In this document: in pieces, positions 30,680 through 61,806 of the stretch
How the letters are laid out: the number at the start of each line of letters is the position of its first letter
Position numbering within the stretch: the first letter of the stretch is position 1
Assembly (NCBI GenBank): GCA_025060325.1
Contig: JANXBW010000012.1
Location: forward strand, 1-64,000
DNA: 64,000 nucleotides
Source of the DNA: Thermoguttaceae bacterium
Lineage (GTDB): Bacteria > Planctomycetota > Planctomycetia > Pirellulales > Thermoguttaceae
Direction of reading: 5' to 3'
Program-made: the position numbers and the translations under genes
The notes under the pieces: generated by a model
What the model was told of the DNA's origin: nothing
The model's input: only the letters and a program-made list of their open reading frames with translations
The model's database searches: none

Positions 30680-32764
30680 CTAGGAGTTTCCGAAAATCCG
30701 CAGGAAATCCATGCCGGTGGCCCAAATCATCAGGGTGAGTAGAAAAACAAGGCCGGCAAATGTCAGCGCCGCCACAACCGATTCACTTGGCGGCTTTCCG
30801 CGGATGGCCTCGTAAGTCAAAAAGAGCATATGCCCGCCGTCCAAAATGGGGATGGGGATGAAATTGAGGACGGCCAAATTGGCGCTTAATAAACAAAGAA
30901 AGATTAAGAAGGCGGCCAGGCCCTCCGACGCGTAATAGTACGCAATGTGGGCAATACCGATCGGGCCGGCCAGTCCCCGCGGCGATACTTGCCCCATCCC
31001 AAGTTTTTGCAGCGTTCGGATAATGAAGGTTAAAGCGCTCCATGTCTCTTCTGCCCCAAGCTGGACTGCCGAAATTAGGCTTGAGGCCTTAAGCACAAAC
31101 GAGGCCGTGGCAAACACAAGGCCCCGATCCGGGAGAAACCAATCCTCGGCCGGCACCGGTTCCAATAGGTGGGCGGATCCATCGGTTAACACAAGTTCGA
31201 CCTTCGCGCCTCGAGGTAAGTCCTGAAGTAGGAAGTGGACAAATGTCCAGTCACCTTGAGACCCACTAAGGTCGACAATGGCCAGTCTGTGGGAGCGAGC
31301 GTCTCCGCCGCTGTTGGCCGCTTGCGGGTCCGCGTGGATCCGTACCTCTCGGATCACCGCCCCTGGCCGAATTCCCGCCTTGGCCGCTGGACTGTCGGGG
31401 ATGACTTCGGCCACCTCCGGCAGCACTTGAAAGGCGAGGCCCCACATCGGGATGCTGGTGGGATTGCCCGGCACAAGCGCCCGGTCAAACCACTCCGGTT
31501 GGCGAAGGGGTAAGGTTTTTGTCTGCTTCCTGCCGTTTGCATTCTCCCAGCTTAAGTCAACAGAGTCCCGCGATTGAGCAAGCTTTCGCAAAAGTTCTGG
31601 AAGGCGAATCGGATCGCCAATCGGCTGGCCATCAACGGCCACAAGGCGATCGCCAGGCGCTATTCCAGCCTCCCTAGCGGGCGATCCTTCCTGAACTGCC
31701 ACTACCGGCCCCAATTTCATCACTAGCCCCAAATGGCGGACCTTCCGCGGCTGGAGGACAACTTCCACCGTCTGCCGGCCCGCGCTAGCGGTGAGTCGTT
31801 CCACGGTCAAGCGTAACGGTCGATCCGGATCCTGGGCAAAAAGCTTGTGGATATGGCCGAACTCATTTACTTCTTGTCCTTCGATCGCGACGATTCGGTC
31901 GCCAGGCAAAAGAGGCGGCTCCGACTCCGCGGTCGGCACATCGGGGAGAAAAGCCCACCGCGGATCAAGTTGCGTGGAAAAGCCATTGGTGACACCGATC
32001 GTTGGAGTGGCGCGGATGCGATCGGGATGGACCATCAGCTCAAGACGGACTGGCTCCCCACCGAGCACCGGTCGCCGGATCGTCAACTTAACCCCGTCGG
32101 CAACATCGCCTACTGATATTGCCCGCTGCAAGTCGGTGAAGCGACTGATGGGACGATTGCCCACTTTCTCGATATTATCGCCGGGGCGAATACCGGCTCG
32201 CCACGCGGCCTCTCCAGGGAAAACCGCCCCCACCGTCGGTGCTTGTTGTTCCACTCCGAGCGAAAAGGCGATCACTGCCGCAGCAAAAGCGAAGACGACA
32301 TTCATCAACACCCCGGCGGAAATGATCGCCATTCGCCGCGGCACGCTTTGGGCGAGAAAGCTCCGCGGGTCGAAGAGCGATTCTTCCCTATCGCCCTTTA
32401 ACGCGAAAGCCTCGCCCCCGGGCGGACGGCTCCTCTTGGCCCTTTCGATTTCTTCGCGAAGCCGAGCGGGGTTATCCTCCTGCCCAAGCATTTTGACATA
32501 GCCACCTAGGGGTAAAACCCCCAAACCGTACTCAGTCTCGCCTAAGCGAAAGCGGAAAAACCGCAGACCAAAGATGTCAAACCATACATAAAACTTTTCG
32601 CATTTGACGTTAAACCACTTGGCGACAAGAAAATGTCCCAGTTCGTGGACAAGAATTACTAGGTTAAGCCCCAGGAGCACAAGGGCGACATTCCACCAAA
32701 AAGTTAACAAGCTGCTGTCGGCCAAGGCCGCCAGGGGCTGGGTTAAGCTCCCAAACCAATCCAA
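30680..32764 (-). CDS. rseP: Site-2-type intramembrane metalloprotease with four PDZ domains
   Basis: RseP cleaves membrane-bound anti-sigma factors and leftover signal peptides inside the membrane. The zinc site is VILVHELGHFLVAKW (His40, Glu41, His44) in the first helix, and the third ligand is Asp in NFIPIPILDGGHMLF near the C-terminus. Between them are a transmembrane helix (AIISAGVLMNVVFAFAAAVIAF) and about four PDZ domains, shown by GEAAWRAGIRPGDNIEKVG, LPGDRIVAIEGQEVNEF, GSPAREAGIAPGDRLVAVDG and SPAAKAGIRPGAVIREV. At 694 residues it is well over the ~450 of E. coli RseP, which has two PDZ domains. It overlaps dxr by 22 bases on the same strand, so the two are translationally coupled. 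Confidence 0.93.
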   Translation of the reverse strand: MDWFGSLTQPLAALADSSLLTFWWNVALVLLGLNLVILVHELGHFLVAKWFNVKCEKFYVWFDIFGLRFFRFRLGETEYGLGVLPLGGYVKMLGQEDNPARLREEIERAKRSRPPGGEAFALKGDREESLFDPRSFLAQSVPRRMAIISAGVLMNVVFAFAAAVIAFSLGVEQQAPTVGAVFPGEAAWRAGIRPGDNIEKVGNRPISRFTDLQRAISVGDVADGVKLTIRRPVLGGEPVRLELMVHPDRIRATPTIGVTNGFSTQLDPRWAFLPDVPTAESEPPLLPGDRIVAIEGQEVNEFGHIHKLFAQDPDRPLRLTVERLTASAGRQTVEVVLQPRKVRHLGLVMKLGPVVAVQEGSPAREAGIAPGDRLVAVDGQPIGDPIRLPELLRKLAQSRDSVDLSWENANGRKQTKTLPLRQPEWFDRALVPGNPTSIPMWGLAFQVLPEVAEVIPDSPAAKAGIRPGAVIREVRIHADPQAANSGGDARSHRLAIVDLSGSQGDWTFVHFLLQDLPRGAKVELVLTDGSAHLLEPVPAEDWFLPDRGLVFATASFVLKASSLISAVQLGAEETWSALTFIIRTLQKLGMGQVSPRGLAGPIGIAHIAYYYASEGLAAFLIFLCLLSANLAVLNFIPIPILDGGHMLFLTYEAIRGKPPSESVVAALTFAGLVFLLTLMIWATGMDFLRIFGNS

Positions 32765-57502: not shown

Positions 57503-57646
57503 GGGCCTTCCGGCCGCGTACAGGAAAAAGGATAGACTTCAGCACGAGGTCCACAGCCACTCTGTTTACGAAGATCCATCTGGATAAGATTGCCAGCCGG
57601 CCGGACAATGCGAACGCCGGCAACGGCTGTGCCCGGAGGTAGCGGT

Positions 57647-58936
57647 GTGCGATCCACTTTGTTTTACATTCCCCACGAATTTCTCGGGATGCCGGTTTTT
57701 GGGTTCGGATGGGTGCTGGCTATCTGGGCCGTGGTGGCAATCGCGCTTCTGGCTCAGTCTGTCCGCCGCTACGGGTGGACGCGGGATTTGCTTTCCCAAA
57801 TAGTCGTGGCGCTACTCGTGGGGGCATTTATCGCGTTTCTTCTGCCACAACTTGCGGAGAAGGAAGGGTTACCCATTCGCGGTTATGGGACGATGCTCCT
57901 TTTGGCTACAATAGCCGCAGTGGGCCTTGCCTTATGGCGGGCACCTGAGCGTGGACTAAATGCCGACCTTGTTTTTTCCTTGACCCTCTGGGTTTTCCTT
58001 GTGGGAATTGCCGGCGCCCGTCTCTTTTATGTCATCGAGTATTGGGACCGAATCCGCGTTGTGGACGGTTCCGGGAATCTCCTTTGGTTTCGCACTTTTG
58101 TTAATGCCATCAACCTGACGCAAGGAGGACTGGTTGTTTACGGGTCGATTTTCGGCGGGATTGTCGCGATCATTGTTTTTGCCCGCCGAACAGGTCTTCC
58201 CCTCCTTGGGTTGATGGACTTTGTTGCCCCCAGTTTCATGCTGGGGCTGGCCCTGGGGCGGTTGGGCTGTTTTCTTAACGGGTGCTGCTTTGGTGCGGTA
58301 TGTGACCTCCCCTGGGCCGTCCGTTTCCCAGCAGGAAGTCTCCCCCATGTGCACCAGGTGGAAAAGGGCATCGCTTTTATCCACGGTGTTAAATTAGCGC
58401 CCGAGGATCCGCCGCGGATCGCGGCCGTCGAACCCGCGTCAGCGGCCGAAAGTTCCGGCATCCGTCCCGGCGATCGAATCCTTGCTGTTGACGAGATCCC
58501 CACAGCCACCAGAAGCGCAGCGCAAGGGGCCCTAATGGCTGCACACACCAAAGGATCTCAGCTTTGCCTGGCCATTGCCGGCCGCACCCAGCCTGTGTGT
58601 TTTGCCATCAGTCCCCCAACAAGCCTCCCGGTCCATCCTACGCAAATCTATAGCGCGATCAACGCATTCCTGATCTGCCTTTTCCTGCTTGCCTTCGAGC
58701 GCTTTCGTCAACATGACGGCCAAGTGGTAGCCATGATGTTCACTGTGTACCCACTTACCCGCTTTTTGCTTGAGATCCTCCGGGACGATGAACCCTGGGT
58801 GATCGCCGGTCAAAACTTGGGACTGACAATTGCCCAGACGATAAGTCTTGTTCTTCTGGCGGGGGCGGTCATCCTTTGGCTTTACATCTTTCGGACAAAG
58901 CCCGGCCGGTGGCAGGCGGCAGCTCCCAGCGCGTAA
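57647..58936 (+). CDS. lgt: Prolipoprotein diacylglyceryl transferase with inserted PDZ-like domain
   Basis: Lgt moves diacylglycerol from phosphatidylglycerol to the lipobox Cys of prolipoproteins. From a GTG at 57647 with GGAGG upstream it has 429 residues, well over the usual ~290. Seven or so transmembrane helices are seen, with ARLFYVIEYWD, QGGLVVYGSIFGG, the signature LGRLGCFLNGCCFG (~204) and VHPTQIYSAINAF (~330). Between the last two, residues ~258-322 form a PDZ-like domain (AAVEPASAAESSGIRPGDRI, LAVDEIPTATRSAAQ) that ordinary Lgt lacks. E. coli His103 aligns with Tyr here, as I recall in several other phyla. The window's lipoprotein at 8371 would be a substrate. Confidence 0.93.
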   Translation: MRSTLFYIPHEFLGMPVFGFGWVLAIWAVVAIALLAQSVRRYGWTRDLLSQIVVALLVGAFIAFLLPQLAEKEGLPIRGYGTMLLLATIAAVGLALWRAPERGLNADLVFSLTLWVFLVGIAGARLFYVIEYWDRIRVVDGSGNLLWFRTFVNAINLTQGGLVVYGSIFGGIVAIIVFARRTGLPLLGLMDFVAPSFMLGLALGRLGCFLNGCCFGAVCDLPWAVRFPAGSLPHVHQVEKGIAFIHGVKLAPEDPPRIAAVEPASAAESSGIRPGDRILAVDEIPTATRSAAQGALMAAHTKGSQLCLAIAGRTQPVCFAISPPTSLPVHPTQIYSAINAFLICLFLLAFERFRQHDGQVVAMMFTVYPLTRFLLEILRDDEPWVIAGQNLGLTIAQTISLVLLAGAVILWLYIFRTKPGRWQAAAPSA

Positions 58937-59947
58937 GCGAACCGGTGGAGCGGCGAGGTTCCGGTTTGGCACGCCTCGCCCAATTCGAAGGAACCCTTGC
59001 AAGCCGTTCCCCGTCCCCCATCGAAGTTGAACTACACTAATCGCGCCGGCGGCCTTCTTAGGGGCGATTTAGACGCATCCGGGACGGGCCCCCTTTCCCG
59101 GCCACACTTGGCTTCCCCACTGGCTCCCGGCCAACGGTGAACGCTGGATACCCGTTGGCGACTTGCCGCATTCGTTTTCTGCAAATGCGTATTTTTGGGG
59201 AAGTTCGAAAGGCACATTCTTACCGGGGCCCAAGTCAAAAGACTGACGCTTCCGCCAGGAGACTGGAGCATAACTTCTACCCCTGCGAGATGCCGAATAA
59301 GCGCAAGCGGAGTACCCCCGCCCCGCCAAGTCCTCGTGCTTGCGGCTATTTCCGTCTGATTTAGGCAGAAGTCATCCCGCCTCGCTTTAACTTCTAACTG
59401 AGCTTTTTGGCAAAAGTACCCAATTCCTAAGCCTGGGGAAGTCACTAAAGATCATCAAGATTGCGAAATCCGCCTGCAGCCCCTCATGCTGGCTCCCCCA
59501 CACGCCCCCAACGGTTTGGGCCGAAAAGCACCGGGTTTGCCGCAACAATTCGGCAAGCGACGCGTGGCCTAAACCAATGGGCCCCTGTGCGCGTCTTGGG
59601 ATCACGCTCTCACTTTGGTGTTGAAGCCAGTTCGGGTGAAAGGCTCTTCGGCTCGAGGCGGGTAAGCCGAGTCCTTGCTGAGGGCCAAACGGTCTCTTCC
59701 AAACCACCTTGCCGTGGCGGGACGCGTGCTCCAGCAAGCGATTTGCCCCGCGGCCCCTGCCGGGTAATGAATCTCGGGGCCCTCTGGTAATGCGGGTACC
59801 AGGACGCCAGGGTTGAGAGACTCTTTTAGGAAACCTGTGGCGAGGCCTTGAATGTTTTTCGCGCCAGGTTGCAAAATATAATGTGCAGCTCACGGAGGGC
59901 CTCGCATAGGCCGAGGCCATTCAAGGACATTGGCGAGGAGACCCTAT
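58937..59947. other. Intergenic region before tRNA-Asn
   Basis: ORFs 59032..59445, 59387..59920 and others overlap on both strands without domains. The last 100 bases contain a promoter-like site for the tRNA. Confidence 0.45.
59877..59882 (+). promoter_or_regulatory. Perfect -10 box upstream of tRNA-Asn
   Basis: TATAAT lies 65 bases before the tRNA in an AT-rich stretch (GCAAAATATAATGTG). The -35 is unclear; TTGAAT at 59849 is 22 bases away, longer than usual. Confidence 0.45.
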
Positions 59948-60020
59948 TCCCCGGTAGCTCAGTTGGTAGAGCGGGCGGCTGTTAACCGCCAGGTCCCAGG
60001 TTCGATCCCTGGCCGGGGAG
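59948..60020 (+). tRNA. trnN-GUU: tRNA-Asn (anticodon GUU)
   Basis: The 73-base cloverleaf has acceptor arms TCCCCGG and CCGGGGA (7 bp, all paired), a D arm with AGCTCAGTTGGTAGAGC, an anticodon arm GGCGG-CTGTTAA-CCGCC with anticodon GTT, and a T arm CCAGG-TTCGATC-CCTGG. The discriminator is G, as usual for tRNA-Asn; CCA is not encoded. It is the only tRNA in the window and has its own promoter-like box and terminator. Confidence 0.97.
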
Positions 60021-60069
60021 CTTTGTGCTTTTCTAGGGACTTAAGCCTTCAAGTCGGTTGTCCATCTAA

Positions 60070-60104
60070 AAGCCGAGTTTGTGCATCTCGGCTTCTTATC
60101 TTTC
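60070..60104 (+). terminator. Rho-independent terminator after tRNA-Asn
   Basis: AAGCCGAG, a 9-base loop and CTCGGCTT form a perfect 8-bp stem followed by CTTATCTTTCT, 50 bases after the tRNA. Confidence 0.7.
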
Positions 60105-61665
60105 TGGCCACCTCCTAACGGTCTCCGGAGATCGGCTGCCGGCCGAAACTGTCTTCGAACGGGAGGAACGGACTCAGGGCAGTGAAAACGCTTGGGTATG
60201 CTCCGAACGGGATGGGTCGAGTCGAGATCTTGAGACAGCTAAGGTTAATCGGAGGGGCGATCATTTCGGCACAAAGCTAGGTCCAGGCTCGGCATTGGAT
60301 GCAGGGACGCGGTTGCCAAAAGTTTTTCCGTGCGAGTTTATCCCTCTTTGGATCACGGCCCACCAAGGGGCCCACGAGCCTGCGATAATCGTCGTCGCGG
60401 GTTTGCAACGCCCGGTCGTCTTGACCCTCCCTGCGATGGGGACGGCTGTTAGGGCCCAAAGAATCGCGGAAGGTGCGGGCGACATCGCCTTCAGTTTCCC
60501 GGTCAAATCACGGTTGAGGTCCAGGACGACTGTAAACTAGCCCGAATCCTCCTACCGTGGAGGCTAGTGTTAGCTGGACCCGGGGAGCGCAACTTTGCCT
60601 TAGCCACCGCGATGCTTTTACTGGACAACTCCCACACCCCTTTTCGGCAAATCCTTATTTGGGAGCCGTTCCGTCAGCACTCCATACCGCTCACGGCTCG
60701 CGGTGTTCGGCCAGCGCACCACACCTGTTGGAAGACATTCAAAGTCGATTTCGTTCAGCTGGTCCTTGATGAGCTCATCCACTCTTTGAAGTACATCGGC
60801 TACATGTGCGTTTCCTGCGGGCTAGTCAAGTAAACGAGGGATTCCTCTCACCAACAACGCGGGGTGTAACCGTAAAACAGCGGAGAAAAGGGAAGACCTT
60901 CCCTGCCCGTTTAGCCCGGATGGACCGTCACCTATGTACCGGACGAGGACTTTCGCGATGTCGCGCTGCTCGGCGGGCCACAGGGCTTTTATTTTTTGAC
61001 TTCAGTCCTCCCCTTGGAGAAGAACATCACGCCCCGTGCGGAGAGGGTATGCCGGCAGTTGCATCCAGCCGGGTTTTTTGTGCGACGTCGCCCGAGGCTG
61101 GTGCTGGCCCGACGTGATCCGTTCAAGGAAGGAAAGCTGGCCGAGCTATGCCTTGTTCGGAGCTGCCTTTTTCCCAACAGGACGGCGGTCTTCGAGCAGT
61201 AAGTCGAGCTGCATTTGTGCCCGAAAACCGTGGCCTGCTCAATGCGGGGAAGGGGACAGGGGGATGGTAACTCCGGGTTAGGACCAGAAATGTCACATGG
61301 TCGGCCCCTGGGGGTGGCGGGCTGGCCAGCTGATTCAACTCCCCGGGGAACGCCGAGTTGTTTCCGGCCCACATGGAAACGGTAGCGAGCTGCTCGAACG
61401 TTAACGGCCGAGCCACGGGGGCTGCAGCATCGCCCGGTTCCAGAAGTGCGGGACAGGAAAAGCCTACTACCCCCGCATTGGTGGCCGGATCTAGCTCCAC
61501 TTTTTTGCCACGTAGTTACGTAAGCTCAGCGCCCGGGCGCAAAAGTGCTGGCAACTTACTGAGGAGCTCAGTCCCAATTGCCACTCCAGGACTCAGGGTG
61601 CACGATCCGCGCGCCACCAAAAACGGCTAAGGGTCCACGAAATCAAACACACCTGAGCCGCTCGG

Positions 61666-61704
61666 ACTGGTACCAATCGGTCTGACACCAGTTTTTATAT
61701 TTTT
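61666..61704 (+). terminator. Terminator-like hairpin without an assigned gene
   Basis: ACTGGT, 15 bases and ACCAGT (61666-61692) are followed by TTTTATATTTTT. The loop contains the further complementary bases ACC/GGT. It points left to right, away from the tRNA and towards the 3' end of the minus-strand gene. Confidence 0.5.
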
Positions 61705-61806
61705 GGCCGTGGCTTCGCACTCTTCCCGAAGCTTGCCGGCAGATCGGGTTCTTCTGCGAGTTCTACGACCAAGCCGCCTACCGCCACACTTCCACCATGA
61801 AGCTAT

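Follow-up and report, generated by a model that had tools for sequence, protein, structure and literature searches.

Lgt carries out the first, committed step in the maturation of bacterial lipoproteins, and PDZ domains are protein-interaction modules. E. coli Lgt (5azb/5azc, PF01790) consists of a seven-transmembrane body that carries the Lgt signature, the catalytic arginines, E243 and R246, and of a periplasmic head placed between TM4 and TM5. This head is an insertion of about 50 residues, E151-P197 (PMC4728403). Head-domain swaps alter Lgt function, the head has been proposed to contact the linker following the lipobox cysteine, and the authors of that work attribute the protein substrate specificity of the enzyme to arm-2, H103 and the head (PMC13251419). 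PDZ domains of the HtrA/DegQ/DegP, RseP and Ctp type, on the other hand, serve proteases.

The window, a stretch of 64,000 nucleotides from a Thermoguttaceae contig, contains an open reading frame at 57647-58936 that had been read in a first-pass annotation as an Lgt with a PDZ-like insertion. The frame has exactly these limits, and Pfam assigns to its product both LGT and three PDZ families (PDZ_6, PDZ_2 and PDZ), all above their cut-offs. The parts of the gene are the following.

57647-58936, forward strand: lgt, encoding a PDZ-containing prolipoprotein diacylglyceryl transferase of 429 aa; GTG start, stop codon included
57647-57862, forward strand: N-terminal extension, residues 1-72 (AF2 secondary structure)
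57881-58279, forward strand: Lgt body TM1-TM4, residues 79-211 (Pfam LGT, AF2 helices, alignment to 5azb)
58256-58294, forward strand: Lgt signature GRLGCFLNGCCFG, residues 204-216 (alignment with 5azb)
58340-58369, forward strand: ordinary helix of the head that contains QVEKG, about residues 232-241, immediately preceding the insert (common to PDZ-less relatives)
58370-58621, forward strand: PDZ domain in the predicted periplasmic head, about residues 242-325 (Pfam PDZ_6/PDZ_2/PDZ, AF2, Foldseek matches to HtrA/DegQ/Ctp PDZ domains)
58385-58396, forward strand: GLGF-type carboxylate-binding loop and strand beta2, G247-V-K-L250 (conservation in 50 copies)
58511-58552, forward strand: PDZ helix alphaB, residues 289-302, with A292 and L296 on the groove side (AF2, conservation)
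58622-58894, forward strand: resumption of the Lgt body (SLPVHPTQIYS), with TM5-TM7, residues 326-416 (Pfam, 5azb alignment, AF2)

The GTG at 57647 is the likely start codon; aligned relatives share this start position, and a GGAGG lies at 57635-57639, 7 nt upstream. The Lgt profile covers residues 74-413 (1.4e-54, 185.4 bits against a cut-off of 24.9) over profile positions 8-240 of 240. The product scores below the NCBIfam equivalog cut-offs for Lgt; its match is split by the insert. The same split is seen with phmmer against the PDB, where the Lgt match is interrupted between residues 231 and 325 and PDZ matches (GRIP, RseP, DegQ) fall inside the gap. Foldseek gives E. coli Lgt, 5azb, as the best structural match to the predicted model (E 9.7e-11, TM 0.74 on target).

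Alignment to 5azb was used to follow the functional residues. The equivalents of Y26, R143, G154, R239, E243 and R246 are kept as Y80, R205, G216, R372, E376 and R379, each conserved in 47-50 of 50 Pirellulales copies. Four members of the set required in E. coli (Y26, H103, R143, N146, G154 and R239) are thus retained, the two others being replaced (H103 by Y165 and N146 by C208); a further departure is C213 in place of E151. The signature residues R205, C208, G212, C213 and C214 are present in all 50 copies. Its three invariant cysteines, C208, C213 and C214 (58256-58294), include the two that stand in for N146 and E151. Divergent Lgts with such replacements, including those at H103 and N146, have been described, and a disulfide was proposed for a similar cysteine pair in L. 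interrogans Lgt (PMC13251419). A family search finds a single Lgt in this 95.6% complete genome, as in most relatives, together with one LspA and one Lnt. The product of 57647-58936 is therefore strongly predicted, from its sequence and its modelled fold, to be the intact housekeeping Lgt of a Pirellulales planctomycete, its activity likewise being a prediction. Some Pirellulales (seven genomes) have in addition a second, short, PDZ-less Lgt of 245-283 aa, and one genome (G001) contains a broken second copy with several stops.

Two features set the protein apart from E. coli Lgt besides these substitutions: the PDZ domain in the head and two extra N-terminal transmembrane helices. The N-terminal extension comprises an extra strand and two added predicted TM helices (22-42 and 46-69) ahead of the canonical TM1. 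It is common to the Lgts of Pirellulales, Planctomycetales and a few Gemmataceae, and absent from homologues in Brocadiae, Isosphaerales and most Gemmataceae. The motifs FGFGWVL and IRGYGTML in this region (57647-57862) resemble a duplicated strand-TM1 unit.

The first-pass annotation had placed a PDZ insert of about 65 residues between the signature and the C-terminal helices. Its presence and position stand, while its length was underestimated: the insert amounts to about 75-90 residues (89 separate the anchor columns on either side, where PDZ-less relatives have 13), and the loop bearing G247 precedes the stretch quoted there. PDZ_6 matches residues 258-299 (8.6e-8, 32.2 bits against a curated cut-off of 27); PDZ_2 (27.2 bits, cut-off 27) and PDZ (27.0 bits, cut-off 23.2) are likewise above their cut-offs, inside the LGT match. 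The motif SSGIRPGDRILAVDEIP occupies residues 269-285, and residues 245-248 show the GLGF-type pattern hydrophobic-x-G-hydrophobic, in which the glycine is G247.

Structure prediction, on which that annotation had staked the PDZ assignment, gave a confident PDZ fold both within the whole protein and for the insert alone. AlphaFold2, run on an alignment of 46 sequences, modelled the whole protein with a mean pLDDT of 92.6 and a pTM of 0.88, the blocks of the insert lying at 87-98. The elements follow one another in the PDZ order (strands 248-250, 257-261, 277-281, 305-310 and 317-320; helices 266-269 and 289-302). The insert folded by itself, from 16 sequences, yields the same elements with a pLDDT of 87.0. 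Below 5azb, Foldseek matches of the whole model are the PDZ domains of HtrA3, CtpA, HtrA2, CtpB and DegQ, the HtrA/DegQ/Ctp matches having a probability of about 1, and, lower down, those of RseP. For the insert alone, each of the 22 PDB matches under 0.001 is a PDZ domain or a protease that carries one, the isolated PDZ domains 4amh, 2p3w and 2i6v among them. Fold, element order, GLGF-type loop and sequence matches are thus those of the HtrA/DegQ/DegP, RseP and Ctp-type domains; by contrast with these, the host is a lipid transferase and a protease domain is absent. Chance is excluded, since dozens of divergent homologues have this domain in the same position.

The side of the membrane on which the domain lies had also been raised as a question. 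It sits between C213, the equivalent of E151, and the HPTQ motif, that is, within the interval occupied by the E. coli head. The loops expected to be cytoplasmic (about 39-46, 97-104, 180-185, 352-358 and the C-terminus, placed from the sequence and the predicted helices) are rich in arginine and lysine. Because it falls in the periplasmic head interval, with the Arg/Lys-rich loops on the opposite side, the PDZ is predicted to be periplasmic. Two helices having been added ahead of TM1, the orientation of the body should be unchanged.

The spread of the insertion among planctomycetes proved to be wide. Homologues were found in 58 of 60 relatives, and a full reading of the 30 best frames showed the PDZ region in every one. 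A PDZ-Lgt is present in almost every sampled member of Pirellulales, isolates included, and in Gemmataceae-type lineages. Named carriers of the intact or eroded domain include Aeoliella straminimaris, Botrimarina, Rhodopirellula baltica and Planctomycetes bacterium K23_9, and loci from isolates and complete chromosomes (L076, L079, L112, L130) are among those with the architecture, intact or eroded. A search for plasmid copies returned no record covering 80% of the query. Signature-to-HPTQ distances are bimodally distributed: without an insert they span 33-49 residues (61-62 in a few), with one about 90 or more. In the labelled set, whose family names were deduced from named tree neighbours, a PDZ or degenerate PDZ occurs in Pirellulales and four Gemmataceae-type groups (f79-f82). 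It is absent from Planctomycetales (f21), Isosphaerales (f78), Brocadiae (f50) and one family nested within Pirellulales (f8). The PDZ-less enzymes of Planctomycetales, Isosphaerales and Brocadiae share the body and a GCFLNGCC-type signature with the present one, and that of Planctomycetales also has the N-terminal TM pair, but their signature-to-HPTQ gap is too short for a PDZ. The domain is eroded in some Pirellulaceae; four Rhodopirellula-like loci and one of Botrimarina have such degenerate copies. The nested PDZ-less family, represented by 14 loci, shows a long stem branch for its Lgt core (0.5-0.7 changes per column), as though the loss of the PDZ had been followed by a readjustment of the enzyme.

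A 120-row tree was built from the Lgt core after excision of the insert. Every order forms one clade, and the presence of the PDZ requires 5 changes; a tree constrained to unite all PDZ-bearing groups, with their nested losses, is not rejected (p-AU 0.212). Against a model of the Pirellulales inserts, those of Gemmatales reach 19-53 bits, and other PDZ domains of the same genome score up to 55. Since the Gemmatales inserts do no better than these other domains, similarity cannot separate one gain from two, and both one old gain followed by several losses and two separate gains remain compatible with the tree and with domain similarity.

What the domain might do can be approached through these comparisons. 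Its absence from several lineages, close relatives included, indicates that neither catalysis nor lipidation requires it, and it appears, from homologue sequences, to be dispensable for the former. The membrane body would perform the usual reaction, in which the lipobox cysteine receives diacylglyceryl from phosphatidylglycerol. The HtrA/Ctp-type PDZ, lodged in the head that covers this catalytic body, would provide an accessory, non-catalytic binding site. Its groove might hold, by beta-addition, a segment in extended conformation from a prolipoprotein undergoing translocation, or else a partner envelope protein, and such binding could tune which clients are lipidated, or when. That the PDZ is an accessory site of this kind, for prolipoprotein segments or a partner, is the reading favoured here, with middling confidence. 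A narrower version, which I consider tentative and rather doubtful, is that it acts as a client filter, reading a feature of certain prolipoproteins on their exit from the translocon, or else a quality-control partner; lipidation would then be selective or regulated rather than dictated by the lipobox alone.

The suggestion that the PDZ selects substrates had already been made from the sequence. It is plausible insofar as head-domain swaps change Lgt function and the PDZ enlarges the head. The form of it in which the domain would recognize a hydrophobic C-terminus fared less well. The genome encodes predicted lipoproteins whose lipoboxes are normal, and 1.26 Mb of it was scanned for their C-termini, with simple rules and crude gene calling. 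In this small sample, in which a few of the 23 predicted lipoproteins look false, 3/23 had a hydrophobic C-terminal residue, the corresponding share being 23% among other secreted proteins and 31% among the rest. A hydrophobic C-terminal lipoprotein tag as the PDZ ligand is therefore without support.

A possible but less probable explanation is that the PDZ has a purely structural, passive role as an extension of the head (a lid, spacer or stabiliser) and binds no peptide, the head loop simply tolerating inserts. Unrelated, non-PDZ inserts at the same site in Phycisphaerae and in loci L141 and L143 speak for it, and the site seems to be an insertion hot spot. In four Phycisphaerae Lgts these inserts are charged, probably helical and 115-140 residues long. 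The rate of change of the domain, and its erosion or absence in several lineages, point the same way: among 50 intact Pirellulales copies its mean column entropy is 2.5 bits, against 1.36-1.51 for the body and the pre-insert head, which makes it the fastest-evolving part of the protein; no single conserved ligand is therefore evident. Positions that form the groove, however, remain glycine or hydrophobic. The glycine of the GLGF-type loop, G247, is kept in 50/50 intact copies; position 248 is hydrophobic in 50/50 and position 250 in 98%, and on the groove side of alphaB the residue at A292 is hydrophobic in 96% and that at L296 in 100%. Core positions A267, G271, L/I272 and G275 are kept as well, and the domain persists in most sampled Pirellulales families. 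This pattern is suggestive of an intact domain whose groove is usable, if generic, although maintenance of the fold alone might produce the same.

It is improbable, though more than a formality, that the PDZ instead tethers Lgt to another envelope machine (the translocon, RseP/HtrA proteases or outer-membrane assembly), thereby forming a processing complex with no role in substrate selection. PDZ domains being interaction modules, such a role would come naturally; the genome has 25 PDZ_6 matches, and planctomycetes are reported to be rich in PDZ proteins (PMC6411480). Against this, lgt has no adjacent or linked partner gene. At 57 of 80 named loci (upstream flanks of L064-L140) it adjoins panC, often with a folK-type gene further upstream, and a sigma factor gene recurs nearby in some relatives; the neighbourhoods of relatives reveal neither a recurrent neighbour of lipoprotein function nor a conserved linkage with envelope proteases. 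In the window, lgt instead follows UPF0261 and PEP hydrolase-like genes. Downstream, about 2.8 kb (58937-61806) are devoid of a convincing protein gene, a tRNA-Asn(GTT) lying at 59948-60021 on the forward strand. Nor can the other enzymes of the pathway readily serve as partners: by established topology LspA and Lnt have their C-termini in the cytoplasm, out of reach of a periplasmic PDZ, which makes these termini unlikely ligands. A connection with RseP in particular, as the first-pass annotation had suggested, was not supported. The window does encode an RseP/site-2 protease homologue (30680-32764, reverse strand) with four PDZ_6 stretches, where E. coli RseP has two PDZ domains. It lies 25 kb away, is one of many PDZ proteins, and nothing was found that points to it in particular.

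An artefact, either a chimeric assembly or an Lgt-like protein other than the working Lgt, might be suspected from the draft state of the genome (89 contigs) and from the cysteines and tyrosine that replace N146, E151 and H103, changes known from divergent Lgts (PMC13251419), but is extremely unlikely, since named isolates across Pirellulales carry the PDZ region, the architecture, intact or eroded, recurs in many independent genomes including complete chromosomes, and this is the only Lgt found here and in most relatives, with the R143, R239, E243, R246, Y26 and G154 equivalents kept.

No description of a PDZ-Lgt was found in the literature searched, and the main texts of two surveys (PMC13251419, PMC6411480) leave it unmentioned. 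Lgt and PDZ are each known, and a listing of Pfam architectures would probably show the two combined. By family model, predicted fold and most key residues, the protein is a member of the Lgt family, to which an accessory domain of putative function has been added. Its significance lies in the presence of a known peptide-binding module in the head of Lgt throughout most of one order, as well as in part of a related lineage. PDZ-less and PDZ-degenerate relatives serve as natural controls, and PDZ-Lgt allows a direct test of the way in which the head handles protein substrates.
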